From a virus: DNA of 31,280 nt. The stretch lies in the IMG/VR virus record IMGVR_UViG_3300022749_000061, positions 1 to 31,280 of that record. One strand, given 5' to 3'. The notes under the pieces are model-generated. The model saw nothing but the letters and a program-made list of their open reading frames with translations, did not search any database and had not been told where the DNA came from. The position numbers and the translations under genes were made by a program. Shown piece by piece: positions 450 to 31,280 of the stretch. Positions within the stretch are counted from its first letter, which is position 1, and each line of letters begins with the position of its first letter.

Positions 450-681
450 GGTGGCGCACTGTGCCAGCCATGGTTAAGAAAGCGTAGCGGCTGGAAGGTT
501 ATCTACAACGCGCCCTTGGACCTGTCTGCCCAGCGTTCTGGGCTTCTCCCGCCGTTGCTATGGCAGGACCTTGGTCAGCCGGCCGAGGAGACGACGCTCG
601 AATTGGTGTTTTCGCGCTAAGAGATTGGCAATCGGCTTGTGGCCTAACGTGCTGGGGGATTTTCAGCCTCGTAGGACTGAG

Positions 682-2244
682 GTGACGCACGTTGAGACCA
701 GCCCACCAGGGCGCCGCCTAAATTTGTGGCCTGGGATATCCCTGGCTCGATGGCTGGTCCTTGCTAACTTCCTCACCGTCACCGGCCTGTTCAGCGTGGC
801 CGCCCTTCTGCTCTGGCAGATGCGCACGGACGCAGAGCGTCACAGCCAACTGACAGCGAACAGCCTCGTTCAGGTGCTCGGCCGCGATATCGCTCGCAAC
901 GTCGAACTCTATGACCTGTCACTGCAGGCTGTCGTCGAGAGCTTCGGCCGAACGGACGTCGCACAAGCTTCGCCTGAACTGCGCCAGCTGATCCTGTTTG
1001 ATCGCGCTGCGTCGGCGCCAGGCTTCGCGTTCCTGCTGCTCCTCGACGTGAAGGGCGTCATCGTCTCCGGCTCGGATCGCTCGGTGCCGAAGGGGCTCGA
1101 CCGGTCCGATACCGAGTACTTTCGTCACTTCGTCGATCATCCGGACGATGACGGGCTGCATATCAGTCCACCCGCCATTTCGCGTGTCAGCGGTAAGCAG
1201 ATGATCATGCTCTCTCGCCGCCTGTCGAACTCGGACGGTTCCTTCGCCGGCGTCGTGGTCGGCGGCATCAACATCGACTACCTGCGCAGCCTGTTCGCCT
1301 CGGTCGATGCCGAGCACGCCGGCACTGTGACGCTCTACGGACCGGAGGGCATCGTCCTGATGCGGGAGCCGTTCGATCAGAGCGCACTCGGCGCAAGCGT
1401 GGCTGATACGTCGAGCTATCAGCGCATGATCGCAATGCGTGACGGTAGCTTCATCGGGCCGGCGATGCTCGGGGACGGCGAGCGCAATATCACCTTCGCA
1501 CGGCTCGGCACGGCGCCGCTCACCCTCAGCATCGCCGTTGCGCCATCCGCTATCTACGCCGAGTGGCAACGGCAGGCACTATGCATGGGCATGGTGTTGA
1601 TTAGCCTGTGCGGCGTCACTGCTGTCCTCACGTGGCTCCTACGCCGTGAGTTGGGTCGACGTGAGCAGGCTGAGACGAGGTTGGTCACCGCCAATGCTCA
1701 CCTCGCGGCACAGGCAACCACCGACGCGCTGACTGGTCTTGGAAACCGGAGACGTTTCGACGAGGCGCTTGCCCAGGAATGGGACCGTGCAGTGCGTGGC
1801 CGACGGCCGCTGTCGTTGATTATGATCGACGCGGACTGGTTCAAGGGCTTCAACGACACCTATGGTCACCAGCGCGGCGACGAGGCACTCCGGCTGATCG
1901 CAGGCTCGATCCGGGCGGCTGCCAACCGCGCGAGTGACATGGTCTGTCGCGTCGGCGGCGAGGAGTTCGCCGTCATCCTGCCGGAGATCGACTTGGCGGG
2001 CGCTGAGGTTGTGGCCGAGCGGGTCCGAGCAGCGGTGATGGGCTGGGGTATGCCTCACGCGGCAGGACCCCATACAGTCCTCACGGTGAGCTGTGGTGTG
2101 GCGAGCCTTCCTGAAATCTTGGCTCACAACGCTGCAGCGCTCGTCGCGGAGGCCGACGCCGCCTTGTACGTGGCCAAGAGAGTAGGGCGGAACCAGGTTC
2201 GTGCTGCCGAACCAAGCATAAATCCCCTGCGCCTCGTGAGCTGA
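682..2244 (+). CDS. Membrane-bound diguanylate cyclase (Cache-like sensor, GGDEF)
   Basis: About 520 aa from the GTG at 682, chosen because AGGA (673-676) lies 5 nt upstream; an in-frame ATG at 571 gives an unlikely basic extension. TM1 spans about residues 22-45, followed by a periplasmic region of about 250 residues that resembles double Cache sensors. TM2 spans about 300-320. The GGDEF domain has D-A-L-T-G-L-G-N-R-R near 348-357, the metal-binding I-D-A-D-W-F segment, and an intact G-G-E-E-F near 425-429. An RxxD inhibitory site (R-A-S-D) sits five residues before it. This predicts active synthesis of c-di-GMP from GTP with product inhibition, controlled by an extracytoplasmic ligand that cannot be named. 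An EAL gene follows on the same strand, so synthesis and breakdown may share control. Confidence 0.9.
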   Translation: MTHVETSPPGRRLNLWPGISLARWLVLANFLTVTGLFSVAALLLWQMRTDAERHSQLTANSLVQVLGRDIARNVELYDLSLQAVVESFGRTDVAQASPELRQLILFDRAASAPGFAFLLLLDVKGVIVSGSDRSVPKGLDRSDTEYFRHFVDHPDDDGLHISPPAISRVSGKQMIMLSRRLSNSDGSFAGVVVGGINIDYLRSLFASVDAEHAGTVTLYGPEGIVLMREPFDQSALGASVADTSSYQRMIAMRDGSFIGPAMLGDGERNITFARLGTAPLTLSIAVAPSAIYAEWQRQALCMGMVLISLCGVTAVLTWLLRRELGRREQAETRLVTANAHLAAQATTDALTGLGNRRRFDEALAQEWDRAVRGRRPLSLIMIDADWFKGFNDTYGHQRGDEALRLIAGSIRAAANRASDMVCRVGGEEFAVILPEIDLAGAEVVAERVRAAVMGWGMPHAAGPHTVLTVSCGVASLPEILAHNAAALVAEADAALYVAKRVGRNQVRAAEPSINPLRLVS

Positions 2245-2380
2245 GTGACGAGCCGCATGACCGTACCGTCGTCATTTTTTGGCGCCGTTATTAACTTCCG
2301 AGCAATGTGATCTGGATCAGCTTGCAACCCTACGTCGCAACCGAGCGCTCCCTCTAAACCAGATTCTGTTGGGAACACCG

Positions 2381-3517
2381 ATGACCAAGCAGCCGGTCTT
2401 GGCTCGCAAACATCGCACGGTCGCTTCCCGCAAAACTTGCGCATTGCGCCAGATGGGGACGCACGTCCGAGCAGTCTTTCAGCCGATTGAAGATCTGTGC
2501 ACCGGTGAGGTCGTCGGATATGAGGCGCTAGCCCGGCTCAAGCGCGGCGATCAGCTTCTGAGCCCAGCGGACTTCCTATCCGGCCTGGCGCAGGATGCTC
2601 TCGTTGAACTGTTCCGGACGATGCTCGGGCAGGCGGTGTCGATGAGGAAGAGCTTGGCCGGTGACGGGCCTGGCTTCTACGTCAGCGTCAATGTCGAGGT
2701 GCCGCTGGTACTCTCAGACGGGTTTGTCGACCTGCTGCGAGACGTGCTGGACCAGAACGACTTCGTCCCAAATGGCGCGGTGGTGCTGGAGCTGTTGGAA
2801 GGCCACGTCGCGCCCGATCTCGCGCAAATGTCCGAGCGTCTACACGCGATCCGTGCGCTCGGTATCCGGGTCGCTCTCGACGACATCGGCAGCGCCTACT
2901 CCTCGCTGATCAATCTGCGCGATCTGCCGGTCGACATCATGAAGCTCGATCAATCCTTCGCCCGCGGCTTGGCCGGGTGCCCGAGAGACCTGCACTTCGT
3001 GTTCAGCCTGCAGGGTTTGGCCCGCAGCATCGGCAAGCGGTTGGTGGTCGAGGGCGTAGAGACGCTCGAAATCCGAGATGCTCTGCGCGTGCTAGGTGTC
3101 GATCTCGCCCAAGGCTACGGGATCGCTCGGCCTATGCCGGCTGAAGCCGTGCCTGGCTGGCTGAGCGCACGCTCACCCGAAAAGGTAGAGCAGGGACCCT
3201 GCACGCTGCTAGGCGCCTATGCGGGACATCTCCGTGTCGTAGAAGCATGCCGCACACTGATGGGCCAACCTCTGCCCATGGCTTGGAAGGATGCAGCAAA
3301 GGATCCGCATGCCTGCAGCATCGGTGCCTTCTTCGACCGACAGGGCGTGCACGACACCACTCTCGGGCAGGCACATAAACGTTTCCACGAGGTCATGACC
3401 TTGTACGACGTAGAGCCGAAGCGTTGGCAAACTGGAGCGGACGAATTCCGAAGAGAGTTGGAGCAGGCGTTGGCTGATCCCGGTTCACGCTTTCGCTGTG
3501 AGGCTGTTGCGGTTTGA
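2381..3517 (+). CDS. EAL-domain c-di-GMP phosphodiesterase with C-terminal CZB-like zinc-binding domain
   Basis: About 378 aa from ATG 2381 (weak GGGA upstream); TTG 2279 and ATG 2453 are alternatives. The EAL domain looks catalytically complete: E-A-L-A-R near residue 48, S-V-N near 103, E-L-L-E near 137, D-D-I-G near 167, M-K-L-D near 187, V-E-G-V-E-T near 224 and Q-G-Y near 244. It should hydrolyse c-di-GMP to pGpG. There is no membrane segment or GGDEF domain. After residue 275 comes an alpha-helical tail with H283, C312 in A-C-S-I-G-A-F, and H332-x3-H336. This H..C..HxxxH pattern is like the zinc-binding CZB domain of E. coli DgcZ, which suggests zinc control of a phosphodiesterase. The CZB call is by motif only. 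The gene lies about 136 nt after the cyclase gene. Confidence 0.86.
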   Translation: MTKQPVLARKHRTVASRKTCALRQMGTHVRAVFQPIEDLCTGEVVGYEALARLKRGDQLLSPADFLSGLAQDALVELFRTMLGQAVSMRKSLAGDGPGFYVSVNVEVPLVLSDGFVDLLRDVLDQNDFVPNGAVVLELLEGHVAPDLAQMSERLHAIRALGIRVALDDIGSAYSSLINLRDLPVDIMKLDQSFARGLAGCPRDLHFVFSLQGLARSIGKRLVVEGVETLEIRDALRVLGVDLAQGYGIARPMPAEAVPGWLSARSPEKVEQGPCTLLGAYAGHLRVVEACRTLMGQPLPMAWKDAAKDPHACSIGAFFDRQGVHDTTLGQAHKRFHEVMTLYDVEPKRWQTGADEFRRELEQALADPGSRFRCEAVAV

Positions 3518-12589: not shown

Positions 12590-12612
12590 AGTCATGCCTT
12601 AACCTGCATCAC

Positions 12613-28013: not shown

Positions 28014-28508
28014 CTACTGCGTCGGCTCGCGACCGATTACCATGACGGCGGCGCTGGCCGCAGCGGTGCCGAACGGATTGACCACTAATCCGAGGAGAGT
28101 GCCCGCCAGCGTCGTTGTGGTGGATTGCCAGCACTTCCCGGTGGCGCCGGTCGCCGAGCGCGAGACCACGTTGCAGACCAGCGGCAGCGAGCCCGTGTTC
28201 ACCGGGATCGGAAGCACGATAGGCGAGGGCGACACGAATGGCCGGGCCCAGGTCACCGACCAGGAGCCGTCGCTGGCGCTCGTCTGCACGTTCGCGGCCT
28301 GCACCGCCGTCGGACGCGAAGCATCTTTCGGCACGTAGCAGTTGGCCGAACCTACCGAGCCGTTCAGCGTGTCCGCGCTCGGTACCGCGCCGCACGGTTG
28401 GGGCATCTTCACTGGCGGCAGCGTTGCTTGCGCGAGCGCCTCGATAGGGAGGGCTACTGGAGAGGCGGCCCAGGCGAGCGCCAACGCCGCGAGAAGCGTG
28501 CGGGTCAT
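28014..28508 (-). CDS. Secreted protein with four cysteines (164 aa)
   Basis: A Sec signal peptide, M-T-R-T-L-L-A-A-L-A-L-A-W-A-A-S, has likely cleavage near A-L-A-Q-A. The mature part has four Cys (about 39, 57, 112 and 123), which suggests two disulfides. The central segment S-A-S-D-G-S-W-S-V-T-W-A-R-P-F-V-S-P-S-P-I-V, followed by L-V-C-N-V-V-S-R-S-A-T-G-A-T-G-K-C-W-Q-S, is a beta-rich pattern also seen in small proteins next to alphaproteobacterial phage fibre genes. No function is established. AGGA lies 8 nt before the ATG. The gene stands upstream of the capsid gene on the same strand, with copy 2 of the promoter-like repeat just after its stop. It could be a periplasmic or surface lysogenic-conversion protein. 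Confidence 0.68.
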   Translation of the reverse strand: MTRTLLAALALAWAASPVALPIEALAQATLPPVKMPQPCGAVPSADTLNGSVGSANCYVPKDASRPTAVQAANVQTSASDGSWSVTWARPFVSPSPIVLPIPVNTGSLPLVCNVVSRSATGATGKCWQSTTTTLAGTLLGLVVNPFGTAAASAAVMVIGREPTQ

Positions 28509-28563
28509 CGGGTGTTCCTGGTGGTGGAAAGCGCTGCGGCTCAGCCGCCCGGCGTCAGATCAG

Positions 28564-28712: not shown

Positions 28713-28823
28713 AAGAATTCGCCCGAGGCACACAGGAGTGCTCCTCAGAAAGCTAAGCGTCTGACACAAGCGAGGATCGGCTTATCATCTCACAAGCCGT
28801 TTCCTGCGTTGGGGGCTTCGGAA

Positions 28824-30077
28824 ATGGCCGACGATATTATTTCGATTACTTTCAATAACGACAGAGTTGCTCCATTGGACGGAGGCGGTGCATTATTCTA
28901 TAATGGCACGTTGTTTGTCGATTATACTAATCAAACGGTAAGTGGAAGCATAAATATAACCGGTTATTATGAAACCAACGCTTCTAGGTTTGATTTTGAA
29001 GTCTCCGGGAGCACGATTCGTCTGGTTTCAGATACAGATGATGAGAATGGATCAGTTCAAATACGACTTTCTAGCGAAAACCACATTTCAGCGGCAGTAG
29101 AGGCTATATATACTGACTACAATACAACCCACCTATGGTACACTCATAACGCTCCGGTTTCCTCAGCAGCTTATACAGACAGCACACCATGCTACGTCAC
29201 GGGAACGCGGGTCCTGACGAGCCGGGGCGAGGTGGCGGTCGAGGCGCTGGCGGTCGGCGATCTGGCCGTGACCGCCTCCGGAGAGGAGCGGCCGATCAAG
29301 TGGATCGGCACGCGCAGCTACATCGGTCGCTTCGCCAACGCCAACCCCGATGTCCTGCCGATCTGCGTCCGGGCTGGGGCACTCGCTGACGGCATCCCCA
29401 CCCGCGATCTCTGGGTCAGCCCTAAGCACGCGCTCTATCTCGACGCGCACCTCATCCCGGCCGAACTGCTGATCAATGGCACGAGCATCATCAAGGCCAC
29501 TCGCGTCGACAGCGTCACCTACTGGCATATCGAGCTCGACAGCCACGACGTGCTTCTGGCCGAGGGCGCGCCAGCCGAGAGCTTCGTCGACGATGACGGG
29601 CGCGGCATCTTCCACAATGCCCACACCTACCACGCCCTCTACCCCGACGCGCCGGCCACCCCAGCCGTATACTGCGCGCCGCGCATCGAGCACGGCTACG
29701 TGCTGGAGGCGGTGCAGCGCCGTCTGGCCGAGCGGGCTGGCCTGTCCTTGCCGGCAGAGCGCCGCTTCGGTCGCCTGCGCGGGCGGATCGACGGCTGCGA
29801 TGGCCGGCGGGTTTGGGGCTGGGCTCAGGATCTGGCTTATCCGAATGCGCCGGTGTGCTTGGACGTGGTCGTCGAGGGCGTGGTGGTCGGGCTGGTCTAC
29901 GCCGACCGGCACCGCGGTGACCTGGAGAGGGCTGGCATCGGCGACGGTCGCCACGCTTTCGCGTTCGACCTTCCGCGGCCGCATGCCGAGGCCATCGGGC
30001 ACACCGTAGCGGTGCGCCGATCGGCTGATGGAGAGGTGCTGATCAGCGCGATCCGAGATGCCCAACGAGCCGCCTGA
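28824..30077 (+). CDS. Hint-domain autoprocessing-type protein with AT-rich N-terminus (417 aa)
   Basis: The start is ATG 28824; a TTG at 28809 is in frame. Residues 1-122 are an AT-rich beta-type domain (I-S-I-T-F-N-N-D, N-G-T-L-F-V-D-Y, G-S-I-N-I-T-G-Y-Y, S-G-S-T-I-R-L-V-S-D). At C123 begins a Hint domain of the Hint_2 type: C-Y-V-T-G-T-R-V-L-T-S-R-G-E-V-A-V-E, then V-G-D-L-A-V-T, I-K-W-I-G-T-R, V-S-P-K-H-A-L-Y-L-D-A-H-L-I-P-A-E-L-L-I-N-G, and H-D-V-L-L-A-E-G. Residues 305-417 are a GC-rich C-terminal domain (G-W-A-Q-D, R-G-D-L-E-R-A-G-I-G-D-G-R-H-A-F). Hint domains cleave the chain before the Cys by N-S acyl shift. No Sec signal is seen, so export, if any, would be by another route. DNA composition changes sharply at about 29190, at the Hint junction. 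Confidence 0.8.
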   Translation: MADDIISITFNNDRVAPLDGGGALFYNGTLFVDYTNQTVSGSINITGYYETNASRFDFEVSGSTIRLVSDTDDENGSVQIRLSSENHISAAVEAIYTDYNTTHLWYTHNAPVSSAAYTDSTPCYVTGTRVLTSRGEVAVEALAVGDLAVTASGEERPIKWIGTRSYIGRFANANPDVLPICVRAGALADGIPTRDLWVSPKHALYLDAHLIPAELLINGTSIIKATRVDSVTYWHIELDSHDVLLAEGAPAESFVDDDGRGIFHNAHTYHALYPDAPATPAVYCAPRIEHGYVLEAVQRRLAERAGLSLPAERRFGRLRGRIDGCDGRRVWGWAQDLAYPNAPVCLDVVVEGVVVGLVYADRHRGDLERAGIGDGRHAFAFDLPRPHAEAIGHTVAVRRSADGEVLISAIRDAQRAA

Positions 30078-30139: not shown

Positions 30140-31273
30140 TCAGTGGTTCAGTAGGTAGGCGTTGACCGGGGCCGCGTGGAGCAACGCCAGGAACGGGTAG
30201 CCGCCCTGGCCTTCGCCGAGCCCATTGTAGACGTACCCGGGATGCGTCCCGTCCTGGTAGATCAGCACGTTCGACAGGGCCGCCGTCGTGCCCATCGTCG
30301 GGTCGGTCGCCGCGTCGACGACAGAGTAGCCGAGGCTCGCGGCATTCGACCGGATCCACGTGTTCACCGCCGTGCGAACCGCCTCATAAGAGGGATTCGC
30401 CACGAAAGCCGAGCGCGGGAGGATCGTCTGCTCGAAGGTCGGCCCACACCCCGCGGCGATCGCGTACTGCTGAAGCGTCTGGAGGTTGGCCTGGATGGTC
30501 GCCGCCGTGCCGCCCGCCGGTATGTCGTTGGTCCCGACCGCGTTGTGGTAGAACGTCATCCCCGGCTTGGCACACAGGTTGATCCAACTCGGGATCGTGG
30601 CGACGTTCTGCGTCGAGGTCTGACCAGAGACAGCGACGTCGTAGGCATTGACCGCCGCGACGGTCTGGCCTGCCATGAGGCGCGGCCAGCCCATGAAGAA
30701 GCTGCCGTAAGCGCCCTCCGTGATCGAGTCGCCATCCGCCAGATCGGCACGCCGCACCTGCGGGTAGATGCCGGCCTGCCGATACAGCGTCATCACGACG
30801 TTCCAGTATTCGGCCGGCGACAAGGCGCGGTTGAAGATCAGCACATCGCGGATGGCGACGTTCCCGCAATTGGCGTCGAAGGAGGTGTCGGCCGGGACCG
30901 TGCCGCATCCGATCTGGCCGCCGGTCAGGGCCGACGCCGGGAAGGCACCCCGCCACAGCGCCTGCTGACCTTCGCCCGCCAGTACATAGGCGCCGGACGA
31001 CCCGCCGATCGAGCCGACAGCGCGCGCCGTGATCGGCGAGGTGTAGGCGGTGAGATTGAACTGTGCGCTGATGCTGGATGGGCTCGTGCCGGTCCAGACG
31101 GCCAAACCACCGACCGACTGCTTCTGCATCAGCGAGACGAAGGTGCTGCCCGACAGCTCGACGAGTGGCGCATCCTTCTGGGACTGGCCCATCGCGGCGA
31201 GCACGATCACGGTCTGCGCCTGCGTGTTCAGCACCAGTCCGGAAGGGATCGTCAGCCCCTGCCGGAACTTCAT
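30140..31273 (-). CDS. SGNH/GDSL hydrolase with LamG-like N-terminal part (377 aa or longer)
   Basis: The SGNH blocks are all visible: D-G-D-S-I-T-E-G (Ser183), A-V-S-G-Q-T-S (Gly217), V-G-T-N-D-I (Asn249) and Y-Q-D-G-T-H-P (Asp341, His344). Active esterase or deacetylase function is therefore likely. Residues 20-160 resemble the second half of a LamG/concanavalin fold, ending with I-R-D-V-L-I-F-N-R-A-L-S-P-A-E-Y. The frame stays open to the window edge 7 nt beyond the ATG at 31273, so the protein may be longer. Such proteins occur in phage tails that deacetylate or bind surface polysaccharide, and the strand agrees with the late operon. There is no signal peptide from this start. Confidence 0.82.
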   Translation of the reverse strand: MKFRQGLTIPSGLVLNTQAQTVIVLAAMGQSQKDAPLVELSGSTFVSLMQKQSVGGLAVWTGTSPSSISAQFNLTAYTSPITARAVGSIGGSSGAYVLAGEGQQALWRGAFPASALTGGQIGCGTVPADTSFDANCGNVAIRDVLIFNRALSPAEYWNVVMTLYRQAGIYPQVRRADLADGDSITEGAYGSFFMGWPRLMAGQTVAAVNAYDVAVSGQTSTQNVATIPSWINLCAKPGMTFYHNAVGTNDIPAGGTAATIQANLQTLQQYAIAAGCGPTFEQTILPRSAFVANPSYEAVRTAVNTWIRSNAASLGYSVVDAATDPTMGTTAALSNVLIYQDGTHPGYVYNGLGEGQGGYPFLALLHAAPVNAYLLNH

Positions 31274-31280
31274 GACCCCC

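Follow-up and report, generated by a model that had tools for sequence, protein, structure and literature searches.

Background

Hint domains behind variable N-termini are already known, and the Hint_2 (PF13403) proteins of Alphaproteobacteria combine variable N-termini with the same Hint domain as the gene described here. This gene lies in a viral stretch of 31,280 nucleotides (IMG/VR record IMGVR_UViG_3300022749_000061), which as a whole is referred to as the window. BIL domains, above all those of the B-type, are like the window protein in their Hint fold, in their sites in hypervariable proteins and in N-terminal cleavage, which in the B-type takes place without the intein C-terminal motif, as stated in sections of PMC7765530; the window protein, in which such cleavage is predicted, may be of the B-type. 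Hedgehog (Hog) and the nematode Hedgehog-related proteins have the order of the window protein, namely, a passenger, a Hint domain and a recognition tail, and in the nematode proteins the same autoprocessing module is found behind different N-termini (sections of PMC2362128). For Hedgehog, an N-S acyl shift and N-terminal cleavage with cholesterol as the nucleophile are described in parts of PMC9163320, whereas the window protein has no known adduct and its tail has no match to a Hedgehog family model. For the terminase intein of phiCbK, the authors suggest in a part of PMC3556154 that recombination, perhaps via the intein DNA, replaced the N-terminal domain; however, phiCbK has a splicing intein in one enzyme, whereas the Hint_2 family appears to undergo repeated passenger exchange. 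The polymorphic toxins share with the window protein polymorphic partners and Hint autoprocessing, which is predicted in the window, but their HINT domain sits just before the C-terminal toxin (parts of PMC3482391). The variable toxin thus follows HINT whereas in the window the variable part precedes the Hint domain, and the description of the gene in the earlier note on this DNA, as in polymorphic secreted proteins, is therefore a loose fit only.

Compared to other Hint_2 proteins the window protein has an unusually sharp composition break and a C-tail domain that is absent from all the others of the 33 Hint_2 ORFs compared below. We propose that it is probably encoded by a prophage cargo gene for a Hint_2 precursor, made up of an exchangeable passenger, a Hint domain and a tail of the surface or polysaccharide type, whose passengers are swapped at the Cys codon. 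New in this case are an exchange point located to the base, a pool of AT-rich passengers, a niche in prophages and a tail of the polysaccharide type. The point of exchange is resolved to within a few bases and coincides with the predicted catalytic cysteine, in genes that are often prophage-borne and have passengers of foreign composition. With such genes one can put to a direct test the notion that Hint domains act as general release joints, in front of which passengers are free to be swapped in the course of evolution.

Results and discussion

Architecture of the Hint_2 gene

The precursor ORF codes for 417 residues from an ATG at 28824, with the coding sequence extending to 30074 and the stop codon to 30077, and an upstream in-frame TTG at 28809 is a possible alternative start (Table 1). 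In Pfam, Hint_2 was the sole match at E ≤ 1; it covers residues 122-257 with an E of 6.6e-45 and 153.5 bits, above the curated cut-off of 28.4 bits, and extends over positions 1-146 of the 147 in the profile. NCBIfam and PHROGs gave no matches to the window protein and no solved structure matched it by sequence at E ≤ 1, while phage records gave five short intein-like matches, thymidylate synthases among them. The AlphaFold2 model (13 sequences) is good over Hint residues 121-250 alone, where the 10-residue mean pLDDT is 71-93, and beyond the Hint domain the quality of the full-length model is poor (mean pLDDT 53). When Foldseek was run with the Hint model the best matches were BIL and intein chains (6y75, 2lwy and 6rix; E 3e-5 to 9e-4, TM by target 0.59-0.70), the best in the PDB being a Tetrahymena BIL domain, mini-inteins and the Clostridium BIL domain 2lwy. 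As modelled, the window Hint domain has the Hint/intein superfamily fold. Inspection by eye showed no signal peptide in the window protein, and none of the window genes was recognised as one for secretion.

Table 1. Coordinates of the Hint_2 gene, its parts and its neighbours in the window
Feature	Position	Strand	Basis
Hint_2 precursor ORF	28824..30077	+	ORF call, Pfam
Passenger, residues 1-122	28824..29189	+	AT block 28834-29182, no homologue found
Cys123 codon, predicted nucleophile, exchange point in relatives	29190..29192	+	Invariant; DNA identity of relatives stops here
Hint_2 domain	29187..29594	+	Pfam, alignment A4, intein/BIL fold
Linker, residues ~258-316, predicted partly helical at low confidence	29595..29771	+	Model
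C-tail 'RVWGWAQD' domain, predicted beta-sandwich	29772..30035	+	Common to exopolysaccharide-cluster and Myxococcota proteins
GDSL lipase protein, tail type, 5' end outside window, convergent with Hint gene	30140..31279	-	Pfam Lipase_GDSL_2; continues in L052
Small leader-bearing phage protein adjoining Hint gene; capsid-gene neighbour in relatives	28014..28508	-	Comparison with relatives
Possible recombination seam	28459..28554		Leader DNA also in Hint-bearing L072, L075, L076, L078

Base composition changes at the Hint cysteine

The earlier note had reported an abrupt change of GC content at the Hint Cys with the reading frame intact across the junction, and both observations hold. The GC content is 41.6% (GC3 0.36) from 28824 to 29186 and 69.3% (GC3 0.84) from 29187 to 30074, and the 417-residue frame is open throughout. 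Maximum-likelihood change points, which were fitted without reference to gene coordinates, fell at 28834 and 29195 in one scan and at 28834 and 29182 in another, the start codon being at 28824 and the Cys codon at 29190. Nowhere in the window is the GC content of a 360-base stretch lower than in the one beginning at 28831 (0.41), and the next independent low is 0.50 near 12,591. When residues 1-122 were re-coded with codons used as in seven phage genes from the same window the GC content was 0.598 ± 0.010 (2000 draws, minimum 0.560) against 0.418 observed and, therefore, it is synonymous codon choice and not the amino acids that makes the passenger AT-rich. The AT-rich segment is coding; it has no stops in its own frame and 4 to 12 in each of the other five, the chance of an open frame being ~5e-4. 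The break is unlikely to stem from an assembly chimera because the same break recurs at the same residue in independent records.

Relatives drawn from plasmids and viral contigs gave 33 distinct Hint_2 ORFs, that is, every profile match that includes the start of the Hint, with duplicates of a Hint sequence removed and start codons assigned by rule. Doubtful members are included, namely, two with N-parts of 22 (locus L009) and 57 (L011) residues, the truncated Hints L016 and L080, and L061 whose ORF runs off the end of the locus. The part before the Cys was lower in GC than the rest in 30/33 Hint_2 ORFs and in 203/391 control genes, a drop of at least 0.14 was seen in 11/33 against 1/391 and one of at least 0.20 in 6/33 against 0/391, the Fisher values being indicative only as related genes are not independent. 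The controls, taken from the window, L005-L060 and L070-L087, were the first 360 nt of each gene, while the passengers are variable in length. In sharpness of the break the window gene is second of the 33, behind L075. Strong drops are found mostly with short passengers of ~110-180 residues in loci which we call Methylobacterium-like because of the identity of their Hints with that of L006, a plasmid gene of M. aquaticum. AT-richness is not required of passengers because that of L006 is GC-rich (GC3 0.96), and the fitted AT block is not always the passenger alone, for in 9/13 relatives it begins 81-425 nt before the start codon.

A break of this kind could arise with no exchange if passengers diverge fast in place and their AT-rich codons come from poor expression or weak codon selection. 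Consistent with in-place divergence, AT-rich passengers are common in the short-passenger group, the AT block of the window begins at the start codon and not at an imported flank, and some passenger families keep 30-45% identity. Composition alone cannot date the event because AT-rich passengers are usual in the family.

Evidence for passenger exchange at the cysteine codon in relatives

That the same Hint module should occur behind different N-termini was borne out, for instance, by two pairs of relatives, though not by any close relative of the window Hint. L006 and L075 are 93% identical in amino acids over 190 residues from the Cys on and 92% identical in DNA, and their passengers are no more alike than shuffled sequences (z -0.3). 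Likewise, L079 and L082 are 92% identical over 190 residues from the Cys on and 90% in DNA, with passengers at shuffle level (z 1.1), which was defined as z below 3 with 30 shuffles per pair. There were 19 pairs with a Hint identity of at least 75%; the passengers were at shuffle level in 14 and related in 5, and exchange is therefore not universal.

Base-level identity between relatives begins at the TGC (Cys) codon. Eleven loci (L006 and ten from viral contigs, with L070, L080, L081 and the window left out) were compared in 55 pairs; all the pairs have Hint DNA in common and 40 matches extend to the Cys codon region, 39 of them starting at most 10 nt upstream of the codon. The exception is L071/L073, where the match runs 867 nt further upstream through the same passenger family and the adjoining phage gene. 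Passenger kinship also crosses Hint kinship: the passenger of L006 is related to that of L076 (E 1.5e-10) although in the Hint L006 is 93% identical to L075, and the passenger of L075 is related to that of L082 (z 8.9) while the Hint of L082 is 92% identical to that of L079. Hint lineages are crossed as well by the passenger family made up of L071, L073, L074 and L078. Repeated replacement predicts unrelated passengers and crossed kinship whereas slow divergence does not. In-place divergence is also hard to reconcile with Hints that are 90-92% identical in DNA and yet follow dissimilar passengers of different length, and with a single passenger family found at 42% GC in L076 and at 66% GC in L006. 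Thus, we consider it unlikely, and passenger exchange at the Hint cysteine in this family is well supported by these comparisons. No free-standing donors were found, the passengers of L075 and L073 having no plasmid matches at E ≤ 0.01. Our literature search found nothing on Hint_2 passenger exchange or on prophage Hint_2 genes, which, with incomplete coverage, is weak evidence of absence. In L070 and L080, Hint_2 follows long repeat passengers (436 and 1474 residues) and the Hint starts are near-identical.

The passenger of the window gene

For the window gene itself the earlier note had proposed a recent swap of the N-terminus in front of a fixed C-terminal module. The swap is seen in relatives, where near-identical Hints carry unrelated N-termini and identity ends at the Cys codon, but the word recent is not upheld for the window gene because its nearest Hint, that of L070, is only about 58-65% identical and no donor was found. 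The module is also less fixed than supposed, for the Hint is kept while the C-tail differs among relatives. No homologue of the window passenger was found either: it gave no plasmid match by tblastn at E ≤ 1, those plasmid matches that seemed to cover it resting on the Hint part, and no known domain in Pfam or NCBIfam. Comparison with passenger families alpha and beta (HMM, hhalign) was not significant, a similarity to L075 being faint and unproved. The exact junction DNA was not found in viral contigs, and no Hint closely related to that of the window turned up behind a different passenger. From the behaviour of the family and the foreign composition, it is likely that the window passenger arrived by exchange.

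The window passenger has no Cys, 4 K/R and 16 D/E, and 61% of it is N, T, S, Y, G, D or I. Hint_2 passengers in general are rich in these seven residues and have few basic ones, which suggests that they are more adhesin-like than enzyme-like. Zero Cys is found in 29/33 passengers, and Cys-poor passengers suit thioester chemistry. We propose that the passenger would be replaced by recombination right at the Cys codon from a pool of mostly AT-rich passenger sequences; exchange would be cheap because whatever passenger precedes the Cys should be accepted for cleavage.

Predicted autoprocessing at Cys123

Cys123 is invariant in 17/17 rows of alignment A1 and in 13/13 rows of alignment A4, and in the 13 diverse rows of A4 S199, H202, Y233, H235, H241 and E252 are invariant as well. 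The window Hint thus has Cys123, S199-x-x-H202 and Y233...H241. A conserved Glu-Ser (E252-S253) stands at what we take to be the spacing where inteins end in His-Asn, and usual splicing is not expected because of this replacement. A His-Asn is found further on at residues 265-266 and, by eye, at differing places in 8/13 rows of A4, which leaves a small chance that the window Hint is of the A-type. A splicing intein, which would end in His-Asn plus Cys, Ser or Thr and sit in a conserved host protein, was rejected because no intein model of NCBIfam or Pfam matched at E ≤ 1 and the flanks are variable.

Based on these residues, we predict an N-S acyl shift and N-terminal cleavage at Cys123 without splicing, and regard autoprocessing of the window protein as a sound prediction. 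In the proposed precursor a beta-rich, Cys-free passenger would be followed by the Hint domain and a tail domain of the surface or polysaccharide type; Cys123 would form a thioester by the N-S acyl shift and the passenger would be released to a small nucleophile. The absence of the usual C-terminal His-Asn at normal spacing would also be expected if the Hint were decayed or purely structural, with no cleavage and the junction a mere domain boundary. However, the invariance of Cys123, H202 and H241 in 13 diverse rows would be surprising without selection on the chemistry and makes a Hint of that kind quite unlikely.

Many polymorphic toxins are processed by HINT domains, as described in parts of PMC3482391, and the passenger could be a toxin, or the Hint could release one, with an immunity gene nearby. 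This is very unlikely here, since the variable part precedes the Hint, opposite to the order in the toxins, no known domain was found in the passenger, whose composition is low in charge and N/T/S-rich, and the neighbours, on the other strand, are a GDSL protein and a phage protein. Classification as a polymorphic toxin with HINT was rejected because Pfam and NCBIfam gave no toxin domain and the downstream gene is on the opposite strand, and membership of the Hedgehog Hint (Hog) family because Hint_2 alone matched in Pfam at E ≤ 1 and the tail is a different domain.

The C-tail domain

The C-tail domain (residues ~317-404) has no Pfam name and shows the pattern RVWGWAQD...R.DL..IG. It is also present in two Myxococcota proteins, in one of them beside a VanY peptidase domain, and in small proteins of Neorhizobium, Chelatococcus and Ensifer whose genes have glycosyltransferase genes as neighbours; in Paracoccus the gene for such a protein lies close to an O-acetyltransferase gene and to genes of type I secretion. 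The C-tail profile matches these exopolysaccharide-type proteins with E values of 1.6e-10 to 2.7e-17, and a scan of genome contigs with the full-length window protein as query returned C-tail relatives only. The domain was modelled as a beta-sandwich with a mean pLDDT of 74. A fold search gave immunoglobulin-like look-alikes only, none at E ≤ 0.001, and with no convincing PDB match no function can be drawn from structure. A second unnamed tail domain (LHxxxDG...RWTDG) follows the Hint in 11 distinct Hint_2 proteins (L005, L007, L008, L009, L010, L012, L016, L072, L076 and L077).

As a long shot, and by analogy with Hog, the tail may bind surface polysaccharide and the Cys123 thioester may pass the passenger to a sugar hydroxyl, so that prophages would decorate the host surface with covalently bound proteins that keep changing (lysogenic conversion). 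This idea comes from the Hedgehog-like order, from the occurrence of the tail domain in proteins encoded among glycosyltransferases, and from the glycosyltransferase (GT2/GT92), sulfotransferase and APS kinase genes near Hint_2 in L072 (1472-2308), L074 (5868-7283) and L079 (5869-7319). If the tail does direct transfer to a glycan, bacteria would have a counterpart of Hedgehog processing and phages a new route to altering host surfaces.

The prophage setting

From 7.3 to 28.5 kb of the window the genes are nearly all on the minus strand and make up a podovirus-like prophage, with genes for the capsid (PF13252), an SU10-type adaptor, a tail fibre, an ejection-type protein and an endolysin; several phage genes were named by eye from motifs. 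In the relative L055 what we take, from such motifs, to be terminase, portal and scaffold genes stand ahead of the genes for leader protein and capsid, a place that is occupied in the window by the Hint gene and the GDSL tail-type gene instead. The right end of the window (31158-31280) has an exact 123-base overlap with the end of contig IMGVR_UViG_3300022749_000015 (L052), which contributes baseplate-wedge and tail-fibre genes, so that the GDSL gene follows baseplate and tail genes. The DNA at 28459-28554 is similar to a leader present in four Hint-bearing loci, and the window therefore looks like a mosaic of two phages with the probable seam beside the Hint gene. In the region 28014-28554 the portal and terminase genes expected upstream of the capsid module are lacking, and a signal-peptide leader common to several loci may be a recombination seam.

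The Hint genes of L071, L073 and L078 are on the opposite strand and have lysis-type (RlpA-type or endolysin) genes on one side and tail genes on the other, and that of L070 comes directly after a phage tail protein gene. From these several relatives Hint_2 genes appear to be recurrent prophage cargo, a link that partly reflects the place of search, since the Hint profile was scanned in viral contigs only; the plasmid-borne relatives show no prophage setting in the annotated cases. By profile, no Hint_2 was found in the analysed stretches of the capsid/leader relatives L017-L060, the record of L024, a capsid relative, having a Hint_2 gene outside that stretch (L077), and none was found in records G002-G004. 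No tRNA attachment site was found. The left end of the window (571-3517) has a dCache-GGDEF gene and an EAL gene, which may be c-di-GMP cargo or host flank, and L077 has a related GGDEF gene (37%) close to its Hint gene and to lysis DNA of a prophage.
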